Positions 1,768 to 54,334 of a stretch of 64,000 nt of DNA are shown one piece after another. A program made the translations under genes and the position numbers. A model generated the notes under the pieces. It had not been told where the DNA came from. It saw only the letters and a list, made by a program, of their open reading frames with translations, and searched no databases. Every line of letters begins with the position of its first letter. Position 1 is the first letter of the stretch. The DNA is from Propionimicrobium sp. PCR01-08-3 (GTDB taxonomy: Bacteria > Actinomycetota > Actinomycetes > Propionibacteriales > Propionibacteriaceae): positions 1,691,482-1,755,481 of the forward strand of contig NZ_CP127390.1 of the NCBI RefSeq assembly GCF_030286045.1, given 5' to 3'.

Positions 1768-1843
1768 TCCCTGGTAGCTCAATTGGCAGAGCATCTGACT
1801 GTTAATCAGAGGGTTACTGGTTCGAGTCCAGTCCGGGGAGCCA
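1768..1843 (+). tRNA. tRNA-Asn (anticodon GUU)
   Basis: This is a complete cloverleaf. The acceptor TCCCTGG pairs with CCGGGGA, the D stem is AGCTC/GAGC, the anticodon stem is TCTGA/TCAGA with GTT at 1801-1803 (position 34 by count), and the T arm is ACTGG-TTCGAGT-CCAGT. The discriminator is G, and CCA is encoded (1841-1843). Asn tRNA with G34 is a substrate for queuosine insertion by Tgt, which is also encoded in this window. Confidence 0.97.
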
Positions 1844-8089: not shown

Positions 8090-9319
8090 TCAGGCAAGCG
8101 GCCCCACACCGTGCCCCATGCTGCGGGGCAGCTCGGCCTTGGCCCAGCCCAACAGGTGTTCGGCCTGGTCGAAGGAGAACCGGTCGGTCATGCCTGCCAC
8201 ATAGGTCACTGCCGAGAGCACCGGATCGTCGCCACGAAACGCCTCCGGCAACCGGTAGGCGTGCTCCGAGTAGTAGGAAACGAGTTCCTGCAAGACGGCC
8301 ACGACACTCTGTGATTGCGCCAGGGACTCGGGGCGCGTGTAGATCTGCTGGTAGTTGAACCGTCTGAGTTCGGCCAGCGCCTCGGCATGATCATGATCCA
8401 TGCCCACCTGCCCGCTTGCGGCGATGCTTGCGCTGATGGCGCGGATCAAGACGCTGAGCTGTTCACGGCGCCCGGTGCCCAGCCTCTCGCTCACCGCGTT
8501 CGGCAGGTCGGCCAGATTCACGATGCCCGCACCGGCCGCATCCTCCAGGTCGTGAGCGCAGTAGGCGATGCGGTCGGCCCAGCTGACGATCTCACCTTCG
8601 ATGGTCACCGGGGCCGGACGCGACCAGGAGTGGTTCCTGATGCCGTCGAGAGTCTCCTCGCACAAATTGAGTTCGGCCAGCGCCACGTCGGCACCCCACG
8701 GGCCGTGGTCGAAACCTTCCGGCAGGAACGCGTCGAAGGCCTCCTCGGAGGCATGGCCCCCTGGACCGTGCCCGCAATCGTGGCCCAGCGCGATGGCCTC
8801 GGTGAGGCTCACGTTCGCGCCGACCGCGCGGGCGATCGAAGTGGCCACCTGCGACACCTCGAGGGCATGGGTCAACCGGGTTCGTTGATGATCGGTCGGA
8901 TAGACCACCACCTGGGTCTTGCCGGCCAGCCTTCGGAATGCCGTCGAATGCACGATCCTGTCCCGGTCACGCTCGAAGCAGGTGCGCTCGGCGTCCGGTT
9001 CTTCGGCCCGGGCCCGGTTTCCTGCTCCGTGTGCCAGTGCGGCCCCGGGCCGCAGCCACGCTGCCTCGCGTTCTTCGCGAGCTTCGCGTCCGATCGGCTC
9101 ACCGGTGGCGATCTGTGCATGGGTGTCACGGTGCGCCCGCACCAGATCACAGCCGTGACCCCGCATGGTGGACGCCCAACTGATGGCCCTGGGGTTCACC
9201 GATCGTTCGGCTCGGGCAGCATTCGCAAGCGCATCAAAATCCCCGGCGGCGGTGTGCTCCTCATTGCGACCCACCCCATCCGCAAAGCCTGTGGTCTGCG
9301 GCGCATCCGGTGTTCTCAT
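8090..9319 (-). CDS. dgt: Deoxyguanosinetriphosphate triphosphohydrolase-like HD protein
   Basis: This family hydrolyses dNTPs to deoxynucleoside and triphosphate. The HD metal site is visible as H151 (LTHALEVSQ), H180-D181 and H184 (LGHDCGHGPGGHASEEAF), with the distal D in SWADRIAYCAHDLEDA. The N-terminal 110 residues are low in conservation, and a shorter start is possible. ATG 9319 is kept because GAGGG lies about 8 nt upstream. The gene pairs with dnaG in the ancestral actinobacterial order, and its stop is 221 bp upstream of the dnaG start. Confidence 0.92.
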   Translation of the reverse strand: MRTPDAPQTTGFADGVGRNEEHTAAGDFDALANAARAERSVNPRAISWASTMRGHGCDLVRAHRDTHAQIATGEPIGREAREEREAAWLRPGAALAHGAGNRARAEEPDAERTCFERDRDRIVHSTAFRRLAGKTQVVVYPTDHQRTRLTHALEVSQVATSIARAVGANVSLTEAIALGHDCGHGPGGHASEEAFDAFLPEGFDHGPWGADVALAELNLCEETLDGIRNHSWSRPAPVTIEGEIVSWADRIAYCAHDLEDAAGAGIVNLADLPNAVSERLGTGRREQLSVLIRAISASIAASGQVGMDHDHAEALAELRRFNYQQIYTRPESLAQSQSVVAVLQELVSYYSEHAYRLPEAFRGDDPVLSAVTYVAGMTDRFSFDQAEHLLGWAKAELPRSMGHGVGPLA

Positions 9320-9467
9320 GCCTCAACCCTCGCATCCGGCACTGACATTTTTGGTGATCGTCTGGTTTCTCGCAGCAACTTCTGAGGCCGCTACCTCCCG
9401 CGCCCGAAATGCGAACACGCACGACATGTCGGGCGCATGATCATATTCCGGGCGCACAGATGGGCAG

Positions 9468-10643
9468 CTACCCGCCAGATGTCTCCAGCTCTGCCTCCGA
9501 CAGATCCAGGTCGAGGCCGCAGCGGTCGTCCAGCCAACCCCAGGGCATGGTGACCTTTTTGCGGGGACTGCCCTGGCGCCCGCGGGGGCGTCCGAGTTCA
9601 GCGACGGGATAGGGCACATCGTGGTCCAACTGGGCGAGCAACGAATCCAGTTCGGCAAGCGACGAGACCATACCGAGCGCATGCCTCAGCTCCCCGCCGA
9701 GCGGGAAACCCTTGAAGTACCAGGCCATATGCTTGCGCAGATCTTTCATGCCGTGCTCCTCGCCCCACAGCCTGGCCAGCAGCTCACCATGTCGGCGGAC
9801 GATCTGCGCGACCTCGCCGAGACTGGGCAACACGTGCACGTCGTCTCCGGCAATTGCGGCGGCGAGGTCACGGAATAACCAGGGGCGTCCCAGACAGCCG
9901 CGTCCGATCTCGACACCTGCGCAACCGGTCTCGTTGATCATGTCTACGGCGTCGGAGGCTTCCCAGATGTCGCCGTTGCCCAACACGGGGATGTCGACGG
10001 CTTTCACCAGTTCGGTGATCGCGTCCCAGTGGGCGTGCCCCGAATAGGCTTCGGCGACGGTGCGGGCGTGCAGGCAGATGGCCGCCACCCCGCAATCTTC
10101 GGCGATTCGTCCCATGTCGAGATAGGTCAGGTGGTCATCGTCAATGCCCACACGGGTCTTGACGGTGACCGGCACTCCGTAGCGGTCGGCGGTTTGCACG
10201 GTGCTGGTCATGATCTGGCGGACCAGATCGAGCTTCCAGGGCAGCACTCCCCCGCCGCCCTTGCGGGTGACCTTGGGCACCGGGCAGCCAAAGTTCAGAT
10301 CAATGTGGTCGACCTTGAAGGAATCGCACAAGATGTCGACAGCGACCTCCAGGGAGACCGGGTCGACGCCGTAGGTCTGCACCGATCGCACGGTCTCCTC
10401 CGGCCAGAAGGCCAGCATGTCCGCGGTCTTGGAGTCGCCAACCACCAAGCCGCGCGAGGTGATCATCTCGCAGACATACAGCCCGGCGCCCTGCTCCCGG
10501 CACAGCTGCCGGTAGGCGGCATTGGTGACACCGGCCATCGGCGCGAGAATCACCGGGGTGTCGATGACCACCGCGTCCGGATGGGACGGCGAAGAAAGCC
10601 GCAGCTTCGGCAGCAGTCTGGTGGAAGTCTGAATTGCGCTCAT
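9468..10643 (-). CDS. dusB: tRNA-dihydrouridine synthase (DusB-like)
   Basis: This flavoenzyme reduces uridines in tRNA D loops. The FMN-barrel signatures are PVILAPMAGVTNAAYR, INLNFGCPVPKVTRKGGGGVLPWK (with the active-site Cys in GCP), PVTVKTRVGID, LHARTVAEAYSGHAHWD and PVLGNGDIWEASDAV. The C-terminal helical tRNA-binding domain ends with a basic segment near RGRQGSPRKKVTMPWGW. ATG 10643 was preferred over TTG 10670 because it begins MSAIQTS and has TGGAGG just upstream. The product is 391 residues. Confidence 0.93.
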   Translation of the reverse strand: MSAIQTSTRLLPKLRLSSPSHPDAVVIDTPVILAPMAGVTNAAYRQLCREQGAGLYVCEMITSRGLVVGDSKTADMLAFWPEETVRSVQTYGVDPVSLEVAVDILCDSFKVDHIDLNFGCPVPKVTRKGGGGVLPWKLDLVRQIMTSTVQTADRYGVPVTVKTRVGIDDDHLTYLDMGRIAEDCGVAAICLHARTVAEAYSGHAHWDAITELVKAVDIPVLGNGDIWEASDAVDMINETGCAGVEIGRGCLGRPWLFRDLAAAIAGDDVHVLPSLGEVAQIVRRHGELLARLWGEEHGMKDLRKHMAWYFKGFPLGGELRHALGMVSSLAELDSLLAQLDHDVPYPVAELGRPRGRQGSPRKKVTMPWGWLDDRCGLDLDLSEAELETSGG

Positions 10644-10904
10644 CGCCTCCAGATTATGGGGCTGTCCCAACCCGGCTTCATCTGCCGAACACGTTAAGCA
10701 AAGGTCGCGAAATCCCGCGAATCACAGCCGAGTTCGCTAACGCATTTATAAGGATCTCCGCCCGCCGAGATCAAGGAGATCCTGCGAGATCTCGATGGGG
10801 TCACGACGTTCAGCTTCACCAAGCTGCAATATCCGTTCTAAATGCGTCCTGACCAATCAAAAAGTAACTAGTGCGAGAGGGCACGTGATCGGCTTGCTCC
10901 AGGT
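10644..10904. other. Short intergenic region with nested inverted repeats
   Basis: Between dusB and the MFS gene lie an inverted repeat AGGATCTCC (10751-10759)/GGAGATCCT (10775-10783) and a palindrome CGAGATCTCG (10785-10794). A 27-codon open frame on the plus strand (10758-10841) reads like a protein tail (EIKEILRDLDGVTTFSFTK) and may be a gene remnant. I cannot assign it. Confidence 0.3.
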
Positions 10905-12275
10905 TCACTCCACCATGTTCTGCAGACGCCGTTCCGGTAGGAACAGTGCGCTACCCGCAGCGATCAAGAAGGATGCTCCGAAAACTCCGAAGACCAGCGG
11001 GTTTCCGCCCACGGTCAGCATCAAGGGGACGCACAGCGGCGCGATGATGGCGGCCACCCGTCCGGCCGCCGAGGCTGCGCCGGTACCGGTACCGCGCATC
11101 GACGTGGGATAGATTTCCGGCCCGATCGCATACAGCGCGCCCCACGCCCCGAGGTTGAAGAAGCTCATGGCGCAACCGGCGATGATGATTCCGGTGGGAT
11201 CGGTCTGGATGCCGAAGAGCACAGCCGAAATCCCCGAGCCGAGCAGGAAGCACGCCAGAGTTGGGCGGCGTCCCCATTTTTCGATCAGCCACGCGGCCAC
11301 CGCGTATCCGGGGATCTGGGCGAGCGTGATGATCAGGGTGTATTCGAAGGAACGCACCAACGAATGCCCCTGCCGCAGCAGAAGCGTCGGCATCCAGGTG
11401 AATGCGCCGTAATAGCTGAGGTTGACGAAGAACCAAACGGCCCACAGAGCGATCGTCCGTCGGCGGAGGTTGGGCGAGAAGAGTGATTCCTGCTGTGTTT
11501 CGACGGTCTCCACACTGACAGGGGTGTGTCGCACCGCGGTGTCGACGCCAATCGCCTGTTCCACCCCCGAGTTCGTTTCGAACTCGCGCACCGACTCCTC
11601 GGCCTGCCGGAGCTTTCCCTTCGATTCGAGAAAGCGCACCGATTCGGGTAGCCCGTGCCGCACGACCAACGCGTAAGCCGCCGGAACCAGCCCAACCAGC
11701 AAGGCCCAGCGCCAGCCCGACCAGCCGCCGATCGTCTGCGGAACGAGGAAGTAGCCGAGCAGAGCGGCCATGATCCAACCGAGAGCCCAGAAGCTCTCCA
11801 GCCAGACCACCATGCGCCCGCGAATACGTTGCGGGGCGAATTCGCTGACAAGGGTGGACGCTACCGGCAGTTCGGCACCCAGCCCGAGGCCGACGACGAA
11901 CCGAAGGATCATCAGCATCGCGATGCCCGCCGAGAACGCGGCCATGCCGGTCGCGATGCCGTAGACCAGCAAGGTAAGCGCGAAGACGTTGCGGCGTCCG
12001 AGCTTGTCGGCGAGCAAGCCACCGACCGAGGCACCGATCATCATGCCGACGAAACCGATCGATCCGATCCAGCTCAGTTGGGTGTTCGTCAGATCCCATT
12101 CGACGGCCAGAGCGGTCATCACATAGCTGATCAGGCCGACGTCCATCGCGTCCAGCGCCCAGCCGGCCCCCGAACCGGCCAGCAGCTTGCCGTGCTCGCG
12201 CCCGAACTTCAGCCGGTCGAGTCGGCTGGCCCGGGTGGGCAGTTGTTCGGTCGCCACCTCGTGCAGTTCGGTCAT
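10905..12275 (-). CDS. MFS transporter, NiaP-like (possible niacin or organic-acid porter)
   Basis: This 456-residue inner-membrane transporter has about 12 predicted helices. Family motifs are GWALDAMDVGLISYVM in helix 1, GGLLADKLGRRNVF in the loop between helices 2 and 3, ELPVASTLVSEFAPQRIRGRM near helix 5 and WLIEKWGRRPTL in the second half. A central cytoplasmic loop (about residues 210-260) is charged. The pattern resembles the Bacillus YceI/NaiP group, so nicotinate or a related carboxylate is a candidate substrate, not proven. ATG 12275 has GGGAGGA seven bases upstream. It is divergent from the PurM-like gene at 12641. Confidence 0.85.
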   Translation of the reverse strand: MTELHEVATEQLPTRASRLDRLKFGREHGKLLAGSGAGWALDAMDVGLISYVMTALAVEWDLTNTQLSWIGSIGFVGMMIGASVGGLLADKLGRRNVFALTLLVYGIATGMAAFSAGIAMLMILRFVVGLGLGAELPVASTLVSEFAPQRIRGRMVVWLESFWALGWIMAALLGYFLVPQTIGGWSGWRWALLVGLVPAAYALVVRHGLPESVRFLESKGKLRQAEESVREFETNSGVEQAIGVDTAVRHTPVSVETVETQQESLFSPNLRRRTIALWAVWFFVNLSYYGAFTWMPTLLLRQGHSLVRSFEYTLIITLAQIPGYAVAAWLIEKWGRRPTLACFLLGSGISAVLFGIQTDPTGIIIAGCAMSFFNLGAWGALYAIGPEIYPTSMRGTGTGAASAAGRVAAIIAPLCVPLMLTVGGNPLVFGVFGASFLIAAGSALFLPERRLQNMVE

Positions 12276-12640
12276 GGTGTCCTCCCGCTGAGTGTTGCGA
12301 ACTATTCGTCAATCGGTTTTCGTCTGTCAGTCTAATACTTGCCGACCCAATTCTTACACGGACACTCACCCGGTGGCGAACCGCACCTCATGCTGGGCAG
12401 CCTCGCGCCATGCAGCGCCCTGATCTCAGCGCCGAGGCCCGCGCGCATGAGCGAACGACTGGCCGGCAGGCATGATCCGGGTGTTCAGCGGCGCTGAGGC
12501 GATCGCGGCGGTGAGATTCCGGAGCGTCCGGCGAGGTGAGCCCGTTCCGCGTTGGCGGACTTCCGCGACGATCGGGTTGCAAGAGCTGGAGTCAACGCGG
12601 CAGCGGAAGCTCCCGCCCCCGCTGCCATACTGGACGAGTG
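12276..12640. promoter_or_regulatory. Divergent promoter region between MFS gene and cblS-like gene
   Basis: The 365-bp gap has no supported coding sequence. I looked for a cobalamin riboswitch because of the neighbours, and see no B12-box (GCCACTG-like) core here. The region close to each start codon has ordinary ribosome-binding sequence only on the MFS side. Confidence 0.35.
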
Positions 12641-13384
12641 ATGCAGCGCTTCCGTGATCTTCTTGTCTTCGAGCCGACTTCGCGACTGGTCATCGCCTGC
12701 GATTCCATCGGCGGGATCGGACCCAAGCCTGGCGACAGTGTGCACGCGGACGAGCAGACCGTCGCCCATTTCGGTGTGCGGGTGCCACTTCTGGAGGTGC
12801 TGTGCTCGGGCGCTCGGCCCATCGCGCTGATCAATGCGTTGTGCGTCGAACGCAATCCGACCGGGCAGAAGATGATTGACGAGATCGAGATTCTCGCTGC
12901 CCAAGCGGGCATTCCGGCGGACGCCGTCAGCGGCAGCACCGAAGAGAATGCGCCGACCACCTCGACCGGAATCGGGGTAACGGTGATCGGCTCGCTCGAC
13001 CACGAGCTCCCGAAGGCCCAGCCGGGAGACGTGGTGATCTGCGCCGGGCTGCCGATCGCCTCCCCTGAATTCAATGTCTATGTCGGGCATCCCGATCAGG
13101 TGACTGTTGCCGAGGTGCGCGACGTGCTGGCCTCGGGCCTGGTGCACGATGCGCTCCCTGTCGGCTCGCATGGCATCGGCTACGAATTGGCCGAGATGGC
13201 CCGGGTGGCCGATCTCGAATCCCGCTGGCTGGGCGGGTGGGATATCGACCCGAAGCGATCGGCCGGCCCCGCCAGCTGCGTGCTGTTCGCGTGCCCGCCC
13301 AACAACATGGACGCAGTAGTCGAGCTCCTCGATCCGAATCGTCCGGCCTCGCCCATCGCCCGACTGAGTGAGAAGGACGTCTGA
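12641..13384 (+). CDS. cblS: PurM/HypE-like kinase, alpha-ribazole kinase (CblS) candidate
   Basis: This 247-residue protein belongs to the AIR-synthase-related (PurM-like) fold. It has LVIACDSIGGIGPKPGD (ATP-binding Asp/Gly loop), VLCSGARPIALINALCVERNPTG, and GSTEENAPTTSTGIGVTVIG. By memory this order matches CblS, which phosphorylates alpha-ribazole during salvage of the cobalamin lower ligand. The neighbouring ECF S component resembles CblT, the alpha-ribazole transporter, and this supports the call. The start is ATG 12641; GTG 12638 is possible and the ribosome-binding site is weak (GGACGAG). Other PurM-like functions cannot be excluded. Confidence 0.7.
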   Translation: MQRFRDLLVFEPTSRLVIACDSIGGIGPKPGDSVHADEQTVAHFGVRVPLLEVLCSGARPIALINALCVERNPTGQKMIDEIEILAAQAGIPADAVSGSTEENAPTTSTGIGVTVIGSLDHELPKAQPGDVVICAGLPIASPEFNVYVGHPDQVTVAEVRDVLASGLVHDALPVGSHGIGYELAEMARVADLESRWLGGWDIDPKRSAGPASCVLFACPPNNMDAVVELLDPNRPASPIARLSEKDV

Positions 13385-52018: not shown

Positions 52019-52756
52019 TCAGCGATCAATGACGTCGAGTAGTTCCCCGAGCTCTTCGCGCGTCAACTCGCGAGTCTCACCGACCTGAAGCTGCCCGAGC
52101 CTGACCGGTCCGATCGAGATCCGTGCAAGTTGGCGAACCGGGTGCCCGACGCTATCCATCATGCGGCGGACGATACGGTTGCGTCCCGAATGCAAAGTGA
52201 TCTGCACCAGGCTGCGTGAGGCTGCCCGATGCACCAATTTCACCTTGTCGGCCTTGATGTGGCCGTCTTCGAGAGTGACACCCTTCTCCAGCCTGCGCAA
52301 TGTCTTGTTGTCGAGCAGGCCCTCGACCTCCACCAGATAGGTCTTCGGCACCTCGTGGGAGGGATGCGACAGCTGATTGGCGAATTCGCCATCATTGGTC
52401 AGGATGAGCAGGCCCTCGGTCTCGGTGTCAAGGCGTCCGACGTGAAACAGCCGCTGATGCCTCGGCACATACTGTTCGAGGTTCGGACGCCCCTGCGGGT
52501 CGTCCATCGTCGAGACCACACCACGCGGTTTGTTCAACACCAGATACATGTGACGCCGTGGCGGCGGAATCCGCGAGCCGTCGACGCGGATGACATCGTG
52601 CTCCGGATCGACCCTGGTGCCCTGTTCGGTGACGACCCGGCCATTGACCTCGACGCGTCCCTCGGCGATCATCTCCTCGCTGGCCCGCCGGCTGGCGACA
52701 CCCGCCTGCGCAAGAGCCTTTTGCAGGCGCAGGCCCTCAGTTGGCTTGTCGTTCAT
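52019..52756 (-). CDS. rluB: 23S rRNA pseudouridine synthase (RluB/RsuA family)
   Basis: This 245-residue enzyme has an N-terminal S4 domain (LRLQKALAQAGVASRRASEEMI) and a catalytic domain with the active-site Asp in RLDTETEGLLILTND. It overlaps the scpB stop by 20 bp and ends the parA-scpAB operon. Confidence 0.93.
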   Translation of the reverse strand: MNDKPTEGLRLQKALAQAGVASRRASEEMIAEGRVEVNGRVVTEQGTRVDPEHDVIRVDGSRIPPPRRHMYLVLNKPRGVVSTMDDPQGRPNLEQYVPRHQRLFHVGRLDTETEGLLILTNDGEFANQLSHPSHEVPKTYLVEVEGLLDNKTLRRLEKGVTLEDGHIKADKVKLVHRAASRSLVQITLHSGRNRIVRRMMDSVGHPVRQLARISIGPVRLGQLQVGETRELTREELGELLDVIDR

Positions 52757-53480
52757 CGGTCTTCTCCAGCTCGTCAGGAATGATTGCCAAATTAGACAAT
52801 TCGGCTGCCAGGTCGGCGGCCTCAGGCAAATGCGGTGCGATCGGTGGCAGGTCTTCCAGACTAGCCAGCCCGAGCCTTTCAAGGAAATAATCCGTGGTGC
52901 CGAGCAGCCCGGCTCCACTCGTTTCGTCCCGTGCGGTTTCCGACACCAGGCCTCGGGCTATCAGCGTGCGGACGACCCCGTCCACGTTGACCCCTCGCAC
53001 GGCCGACACCCGGGAGCGCGAAACCGGCTGCGCATAGGCGATCACCGCAAGTGTCTCCAGGGACGCCTGACTGAGCCTGTTCTGCTGACCCTCGATCACC
53101 CATTGGGAAATCAGCTCGGCTTGTTCCGGACGCGTCGCATACTGCCATCCTCCGGCGATCTCACGTAACCGGAATCCCCTGCCGGTCCGGTCGTAAAAGT
53201 CACGCAACTCTTCGAGAGCCTGCCGGACGACACCGATCGGCGCGTCCACCGCACTCGCGAGCAGCTCGGCAGGCAATGGCTCGGTCGCGATGATCAGCAA
53301 TGCCTCGAGATCTGATTGCACATCGCCGCGACCGCTGCCGCCAGTTCTCTCATCGCACGATTCGGGCTCCGGGGTCTCGACGAGATCCGGTGTGTCAGCA
53401 TTCATGTCGTCCCTCCGGAGGCTTCTGCCGGTCGCCTCCAACATTCCGGCCCGCTGGTCGTCGCTGAGGTCAGCATTCAT
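52737..53480 (-). CDS. scpB: Segregation and condensation protein B
   Basis: ScpB is the second winged-helix subunit of the SMC kleisin complex. Conserved features are ALLIIATEPLPAELLA, QASLETLAVIAYAQPVSRSRVSAVRGVNVDGVVRTL and GTTDYFLERLGL. The N-terminal 60 residues are unconserved. Two in-frame ATGs at 53480 and 53405 have the same ribosome-binding site, a consequence of a 75-bp duplication. Confidence 0.94.
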   Translation of the reverse strand: MNADLSDDQRAGMLEATGRSLRRDDMNADTPDLVETPEPESCDERTGGSGRGDVQSDLEALLIIATEPLPAELLASAVDAPIGVVRQALEELRDFYDRTGRGFRLREIAGGWQYATRPEQAELISQWVIEGQQNRLSQASLETLAVIAYAQPVSRSRVSAVRGVNVDGVVRTLIARGLVSETARDETSGAGLLGTTDYFLERLGLASLEDLPPIAPHLPEAADLAAELSNLAIIPDELEKTDERQAN

Positions 53481-53505
53481 GTCGTCCCTCCGGGGGCTTC
53501 TGCCG
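53394..53505. repeat. Tandem 75-bp duplication around the scpB start
   Basis: A 37-bp segment that holds the ribosome-binding site, the ATG and the first codons of scpB recurs 75 bp apart (53394-53430 and 53469-53505) with one mismatch. Both copies are in frame, so the duplication adds 25 residues (MNADLSDDQRAGMLEATGRSLRRDD) before the second ATG. Confidence 0.85.
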
Positions 53506-54334
53506 GGCTTGCTGCGGATACGTCATCGCCTGGTGGACGATCGAACTCGTCCGAGATCTCCACCTGTCCGGCCTCGTCCCCCATCCAACGGATGGTCAGC
53601 TCGGCCAAGGGCGCAAGTTGTTCGAAGCTCACCTGCGATCGCCGGAACAGCTCGAGTAAGGCCAAGAACCGGGCGACGCATTCCAGCTTCGTCGCGTCGG
53701 CGGTGAGATCCCGGAAGCTCAGCGTGCGTGCCGACCGCAGCCGGGACACGATGAACTCCGCCTGCGTGGCGACACTGATCTGAGGAAGGTGCAGCTGCGA
53801 GACGGGCATGATCTGCTCGTTTTCCCGGGTGAACGCCCGCTCCGCCAGCGTGGCCAACCGAGCCACACCGCCGGGAATCGTCACCTCGGGCAATAGCCCG
53901 CGGAATTGTTCCTCCAACCCACCAGGCCTCGCGGCGACCTGCCGCTCGGCGTCCATCTGCGCGGCGAACCAGCGGGAGACCTCCTTATAGGCGCGATACT
54001 GCAACAGACGCGCGAAGAGCAGGTCGCGGGCCTCCAAGACGGCCAGATCCTCCGGATCCTCAACCTCTCCGCTGGGTAGCAGCCGAGCGGCCTTCAGATC
54101 CAGCAGGGTTGCCGCCACCACGAGAAACGAGGAGGTCTGTTCAAGATCCCAGACCTGACCACCGACCTTTACGTGCGCGATGAACTCGTCGGTGACCTGA
54201 CTGAGTGCGACCTCGGTGATGTCCAGCTGGCGTCGCCCGATCAGTTGCAGGAGCAGATCGAACGGCCCCTCGAAGTTCTCCAGGCGGATCAGGAACGATC
54301 CGCCTGGCTCGAGCGGCTGCTCGTCACTGGTCAT
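53477..54334 (-). CDS. scpA: Segregation and condensation protein A
   Basis: This 285-residue kleisin bridges the SMC dimer. The N-terminal domain has RLENFEGPFDLLLQLIGRRQLDITEVALSQVTDEF, and the C-terminal winged helix has FLALLELFRRSQVSFEQLAPLAELTI. It overlaps the RHH gene and scpB by a few bases at each end. The C-terminus is cut short by the 75-bp duplication junction. Confidence 0.95.
   Translation of the reverse strand: MTSDEQPLEPGGSFLIRLENFEGPFDLLLQLIGRRQLDITEVALSQVTDEFIAHVKVGGQVWDLEQTSSFLVVAATLLDLKAARLLPSGEVEDPEDLAVLEARDLLFARLLQYRAYKEVSRWFAAQMDAERQVAARPGGLEEQFRGLLPEVTIPGGVARLATLAERAFTRENEQIMPVSQLHLPQISVATQAEFIVSRLRSARTLSFRDLTADATKLECVARFLALLELFRRSQVSFEQLAPLAELTIRWMGDEAGQVEISDEFDRPPGDDVSAASPAEAPGGTT

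Follow-up and report, generated by a model that had tools for sequence, protein, structure and literature searches.

A spaced, in-frame duplication of the scpA-scpB stop/start junction in Propionimicrobium sp. PCR01-08-3

Translational coupling by termination-reinitiation has been described for gene pairs in which the upstream stop codon and the downstream start codon share the sequence ATGA. In the excerpt of PMC10666635 used here, such pairs have a 4-base overlap and an upstream Shine-Dalgarno (SD) sequence and encode subunits of one complex. For three pairs of E. coli genes, the same paper reports that a gap of 38 nt lowered reinitiation by 80–90% (two pairs) or wholly (one pair). Short sequences inserted at such junctions are also known. 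The MIRUs of mycobacteria are described, in the cited part of a review (PMC12548453), as inserting at start codons with coupling of this kind. On the engineering side, the excerpted text of PMC13255528 reports that, in E. coli, a gene is translated more strongly when a synthetic short ORF with an internal ribosome-binding site precedes it.

The scpA-scpB pair of one actinobacterium, Propionimicrobium sp. PCR01-08-3, shares the 4-base overlap, the upstream SD and the single complex with the ATGA-coupled pairs, but it differs from them in having a second whole copy of the junction 75 bases downstream. The pair was analysed in a 64,000-nucleotide stretch of contig NZ_CP127390.1 (the window), and window positions are used throughout (Table 1). 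ScpB is assigned to Pfam family PF04079 (E 3.4e-47; 160.4 bits against a curated cut-off of 27.4) and ScpA to PF02616 (E 1.5e-45). The two copies of the junction are identical at 37 of 38 bases, with sharp edges, and the offset of 75 bases keeps the reading frame with no stops between the starts. An in-frame duplication of the scpB start, with the two starts 25 residues apart, had been reported in the first-pass annotation and is confirmed. The single mismatch noted there is also real, a C/T difference, while the unit, given as 37 bp ending at 53505, is 38 bases long and ends at 53506. Each unit carries a GGAGG ribosome-binding site six bases before the ATG, and the SD and ATG are intact in both copies, which show no difference from the SD onward. 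The scpB product from start 1 reads MNADLSDDQRAGMLEATGRSLRRDD-MNAD....

Table 1. Features of the duplicated scpA-scpB junction, in window positions
Feature	Position	Strand	Remarks
scpA	53477..54334	-	285 aa; TGA overlaps start 1 by 4 bases
scpB from start 1	52737..53480	-	247 aa
scpB from start 2	52737..53405	-	222 aa
ScpB domain PF04079	52839..53309	-	residues 58-214
Copy 1 of 38-bp unit	53469..53506	-	last scpA codons, SD, ATGA stop/start overlap, first scpB codons
Spacer, 37 bp	53432..53468	-	between the copies; once in genome at up to 3 mismatches
Copy 2 of 38-bp unit	53394..53431	-	one C/T difference; inside scpB read from start 1
SD-like GGAGG of start 1	53487..53491	-	
SD-like GGAGG of start 2	53412..53416	-	
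Predicted 24-codon out-of-frame ORF	53402..53476	-	ATG abuts scpA stop; TGA forms an ATGA overlap with start 2

The core sequence GGAGG-GACGAC-ATGAATGCTGAC is present in both copies, with two matches in the window and none in 100 shuffles, and the close direct repeat at the scpB start scores 35 while the best scores in 10 Markov-1 random windows are 12–15. On these two grounds a chance origin of the repeat is excluded. No further copy of the 38-base unit was found in the genome in a search allowing up to 3 mismatches, and therefore no dispersed element is involved. An assembly artefact might be considered, since this is one local repeat judged from the assembly alone. We regard it as extremely unlikely, because the 37-base spacer and the mismatch are unlike a doubled repeat, and the contig is 3.25 Mb long in a genome of 2 contigs.

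The duplication has been searched for in relatives at two depths. Within the genus, seven other genomes were compared and the junction is readable in four (G002, G005, G006 and G007); of the remaining three, G001 yielded no junction, that of G003 lies beyond a contig end and that of G004 appears deleted. None of the four readable junctions has a duplicated scpB start, and their nearest ATG lies at -4 or -8 from the scpA stop, the -8 of G002 being read by eye at a junction where the script found no start offset. A wider survey of 158 loci gave 148 junctions including our own, after 10 were dropped (six with scpB only and four smc loci); its named and unnamed records may overlap in species. A start was found in 115 of the 148, and the commonest offset, in 65 of these 115, is the -4 seen at start 1. 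All 148 were tested for a repeat spanning the start. Our junction scores 35, the next two 17 and 13 and the rest at most 10 (best 8 of 148 listed), and the junctions scoring 17 and 13 are the ends of 15-bp arrays. No other of the 148 junctions has a comparable start duplication. Judging from the sequences compared, the duplication is lineage-specific. The divergence of the copies (1 mismatch in 38, 95% interval 0.07–13.8%) is consistent with a duplication that postdates the divergence from the nearest relatives, whose DNA identity is 77–78% where aligned. The earlier proposal of a recent event is upheld by this single mismatch and by the absence of the duplication from the four readable junctions of the genus and the 147 other junctions; the contrary pattern, both copies conserved with divergence in relatives, was not found.

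The region that received the insert is a variable one. The distance from the conserved end of ScpA to the conserved start of ScpB is 227 nt here (152 without the 75-base offset), 140 in G006, 82 in G005 and G007 and 49 in G002. In the junction survey, the residues ahead of the ScpB domain have a median of 23, quartiles of 8 and 37 and a maximum of 188, and the tails of the relatives vary freely. Repeats with periods of 15–18 bp have been observed in the scpA tail or scpB head at other junctions, for example L044, L046, L045, L049 and L015 (22 of 148 junctions listed), which argues that the linker is generally free to grow. These expansions affect the same unconstrained linkers as the repeat described here; they differ in their short periods, and just two of the arrays extend to a start, each by a weak end. 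The extra 25 residues of the start-1 product sit outside the Pfam domain. In an AlphaFold model built from 33 sequences, residues 1–50 have a mean pLDDT of 48–54 in five 10-residue blocks, while 13 of the 16 blocks of residues 51–210 are at 90 or above. The extension is thus predicted to be probably disordered.

Based on these observations, we consider it quite probable that the locus is a lineage-specific, near-neutral local duplication of the scpA-scpB junction. The arrangement observed suggests that a 38-bp cassette, comprising the end of scpA, the SD, the ATGA and the first scpB codons, gave rise to a second copy 75 bases downstream, and that 37 bases of filler came to separate the two. 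The insertion site would be the hypervariable linker that runs from the folded portion of ScpA to that of ScpB. If so, the locus is a clear small case in which disordered tails between coupled genes can grow by copying of the stop/start junction, a process that keeps both genes in frame and coupled while residues are added.

The position of the scpA stop codon sets the two starts apart. Start 1 overlaps it by four bases, as in ATGA-coupled pairs, and start 2 lies 71 bases past it. Since start 1 alone overlaps the stop, the two starts are not equal, and their description as equivalent in the first-pass annotation is not sustained; more generally, identity in sequence does not make two start units of a gene equal when one alone overlaps the upstream stop. 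In view of the distance effect in the E. coli pairs, start 2 would need an initiation of its own or a relay. In the sequence ATGAATG a second ATG directly follows the scpA stop and opens the 24-codon frame, and because this frame ends in ATGA at start 2, coupling could be relayed. From sequence considerations, start 1 is most likely the main scpB start, and two ScpB isoforms are possible. Most ScpB would probably come from start 1, through reinitiation at the ATGA overlap by ribosomes that have just completed scpA, and this product would carry the 25-residue, probably disordered extension. Start 2, which keeps a good SD, would probably give a minor 222-aa form, either by its own initiation or after translation of the 24-codon ORF. 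No report of an scpB start duplication or of ScpB isoforms was found in titles and abstract openings, in a literature search that covered subscription papers only sparsely.

The 24-codon ORF makes the insert comparable with the MIRUs. As far as the cited parts of PMC12548453 and PMC4213456 describe them, MIRUs (53 and 77 bp) are close to the insert in size, lie at operon junctions and carry a short ORF with a -4 overlap. By analogy, the short ORF of the 75-bp insert, from the scpA stop to the ATGA at start 2, may be what left scpB coupled to scpA. The predicted ORF does abut the scpA TGA and overlap the next start by four bases, and the mycobacterial MIRUs (PMC12548453) and the engineered short-ORF boost in E. 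coli (PMC13255528), both taken from excerpts, offer precedents. We nevertheless find this account unlikely. Unlike the MIRUs as excerpted, the unit is confined to one locus, with only two copies at up to 3 mismatches and the spacer present once, and the repeated part is the junction itself. Such a relay is also unneeded, since start 1 already keeps scpB open, and copying of the junction makes a second ATGA automatically.

A second alternative is that the dual start has been selected, so that the cell produces the two ScpB forms in a regulated ratio and Smc-ScpAB assembly is altered by the 25-residue tail. The intact SD-ATG units, identical from the SD onward, and the in-frame offset without stops are consistent with this proposal. 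On the other hand, the arrangement is absent from every other junction tested, the tail is predicted to be disordered and outside the Pfam domain in a region where the tails of relatives vary freely, and one third of insert lengths would be in frame by chance. This proposal is, in our judgement, quite improbable. A further effect of the duplication could arise through RNA pairing. In a fold of 321 nt, SD1 is predicted to pair with copy 2 (0.83–0.86). With flanks of 90 or 130 bases, the values for an unpaired SD are 0.01–0.05 and 0.20–0.23 with two copies, against 0.73–0.75 with one copy; with a flank of 60 bases they are 0.40 and 0.24 against 0.21, and the masking effect is gone. SD masking, if true, would make the duplication non-neutral. 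We give it little weight, because the stability of the fold does not exceed that of shuffled sequences (z -0.78, equalled by 40 of 200) and the outcome depends on flank length. A regulatory RNA structure was rejected on the same grounds.

A tandem duplication yields a match as long as its spacing. Here the match is 38 bases at a spacing of 75, and the duplication is not a plain tandem because a 37-base spacer of no clear source separates the copies; the tandem event put forward in the first-pass annotation does not account for the locus, since a plain duplication leaves the spacer unexplained. Ungapped, 10 of the 37 spacer positions agree with one flank and 11 with the other. Of eight gapped comparisons, the one with the 100 bases downstream gave the best alignment; 14 of 300 shuffles did as well, which is borderline, and in each of the others at least 39 of 300 did. 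A longer test of this downstream stretch was not significant. Three further readings were rejected: that the downstream sequence holds an older, third copy of the unit (407 and 316 of 2000 codon shuffles align equally well under two scorings), that the spacer is an older ScpB N-terminus (its likeness to ScpB N-termini, suggested by eye for L008, is not significant, with 85 of 400 shuffles as good) and that the spacer is an inverted copy of the unit.

As the origin of the preferred local duplication, a break at which repair or replication took up filler DNA appears likeliest. The copy-spacer-copy form would be expected if filler was captured while a staggered break was repaired, and the genome encodes Ku. 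The form also recalls the resident type II CRISPR array, in which near-identical repeats surround a spacer of similar size. Spontaneous off-target CRISPR integration occurs in E. coli, and in the present case the Cas1-Cas2 of the organism's own type II system might have integrated a spacer off target, duplicating the target on either side of it. This is compatible with the repeat-spacer-repeat form, with the presence of Cas9, a type II Cas1 and an array whose 36-bp repeats recur every 64 bp, and with another duplication in this genome (L203:12134) spaced exactly 64 bp. However, the repeat and spacer at scpB measure 38 and 37 bases against 36 and 28 in the array, the period is 75 and not 64, and a single unit lies inside a gene junction. 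Among the matches listed for the spacer, those to phages (8 of 42 records listed) include none below E 6, and those to plasmids (8 of 49 records listed) none below E 0.4. Similar duplications in the genome, described below, have no fixed repeat length (arms 26–68, spacings 57–116), and a fixed-length integrase is disfavoured since arm and spacing lengths vary too much. We therefore regard CRISPR integration as very unlikely.

In 38% of the genome (61 stretches, the window among them, together 1.264 Mb), we identified 14 short-range spaced duplications, with the arm and spacing ranges given above. The count is a hand merge of 20 rows (spacing up to 130, non-overlapping arms), in which two rows of a 21-bp array (L195:13275) were dropped and the L205, L210 and L261 rows merged; six rows with spacing above 130 were excluded. 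L205 and L210 are true 2.3-copy arrays. The pair at L203:12134 is identical at 38 of 38 bases, while that at L221:2263 has 39 bases with one mismatch at a spacing of 76 and lies upstream of an ornithine carbamoyltransferase gene. At L187:9462 (spacing 74) the last codons of a gene resembling, by eye, a substrate-binding lipoprotein are repeated before nadD, and at L195:11684 a 30-base pair follows msrA at a spacing of 75. The array at L205:15984 (2.3 copies, spacing 79) repeats the end of purE including its ATGA. A constant spacing of 74–76 bases, as in the first 400 kb, was rejected when more sequence gave 57–116.

By reading, at least 8 of the 14 loci (scpB, L203, L205, two at L221, L210, L187 and L195) are at gene ends, at stop/start junctions or between genes, the other six having been looked at less closely. 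Automatic ORF calls leave at least one arm outside ORFs at 12 of 14 loci (83.6% of bases are inside), with a crude caller that dropped scpB and purE, misscoring our locus and L205, and that scored L221:2263 and L195 as coding on account of antisense ORFs. In the relative G005, outside its CRISPR array, spacings of 68, 72, 89 and 112 (L235) and 108 (L231) are among the matches listed. The 14 similar duplications make the scpB case one of a class, and an ordinary mutational process is therefore favoured. A more specific version would be that a recurrent process copies 26–68 bases, often at gene borders, to a place 57–116 bases away with unrelated filler, and that its product at scpA-scpB is a self-coupling insert: two overlapping frames deliver ribosomes to a re-created ATGA, so that the insertion is tolerated and the operon acquires a second form of ScpB. 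This version has, in our view, a small chance of being correct.

Several other repeats were observed. The type II CRISPR locus of the organism occupies L250:7048–8580 and 8939–13282 and encodes a Cas9 of 1137 aa and a type II Cas1 of 298 aa; the 36-bp repeats of its array read GCTGGGGATCAGTTCGATAACCCCTTGATAGACTTC and the spacers are about 28 bp, for a period of 64. G005 has a very long CRISPR array at L226, from 13969 to near its end, with repeat GTGCTCCCCGCGCAGGCGGGGATGATCC and a period of 61, which we take to be type I-E-like. At L198:5001 of the organism's own genome, a 93-bp segment is repeated 179 bases on, with ends that look inverted by eye (CCTTCC..GGAAGG). The tRNA-Asn gene of the window (1768–1843) has a 56-base copy of its body, with 3 mismatches, 161 bases upstream (from 1610), at which ARAGORN calls no tRNA.

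The genome comparison also revealed apparent losses affecting the Smc-ScpAB complex. In G004, of the same genus, scpA and scpB are apparently fused by one large internal deletion (L069, about 1541–1845) that joins scpA to about residue 36 with scpB from about residue 168. The 3.15-kb locus also carries parA-like and rluB-like genes (named by eye), and the best smc match covers model positions 1078–1181 only, in an assembly of 300 contigs. In the genera g4 (G010, G057–G059), g14 (G020, G098–G105) and g22 (G028, G160–G162), none of the 17 genomes has PF04079, PF02616 or an Smc above the TIGR02168 cut-off. These genomes are 99–100% complete, eight of them in one contig, and the whole complex has apparently been lost in these genera within one family. 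An MksF-like protein (PF11855) was not found in G057, G098, G100 or G101, and was detected in the other four of the eight genomes tested (G010, G161, G028 and G162).
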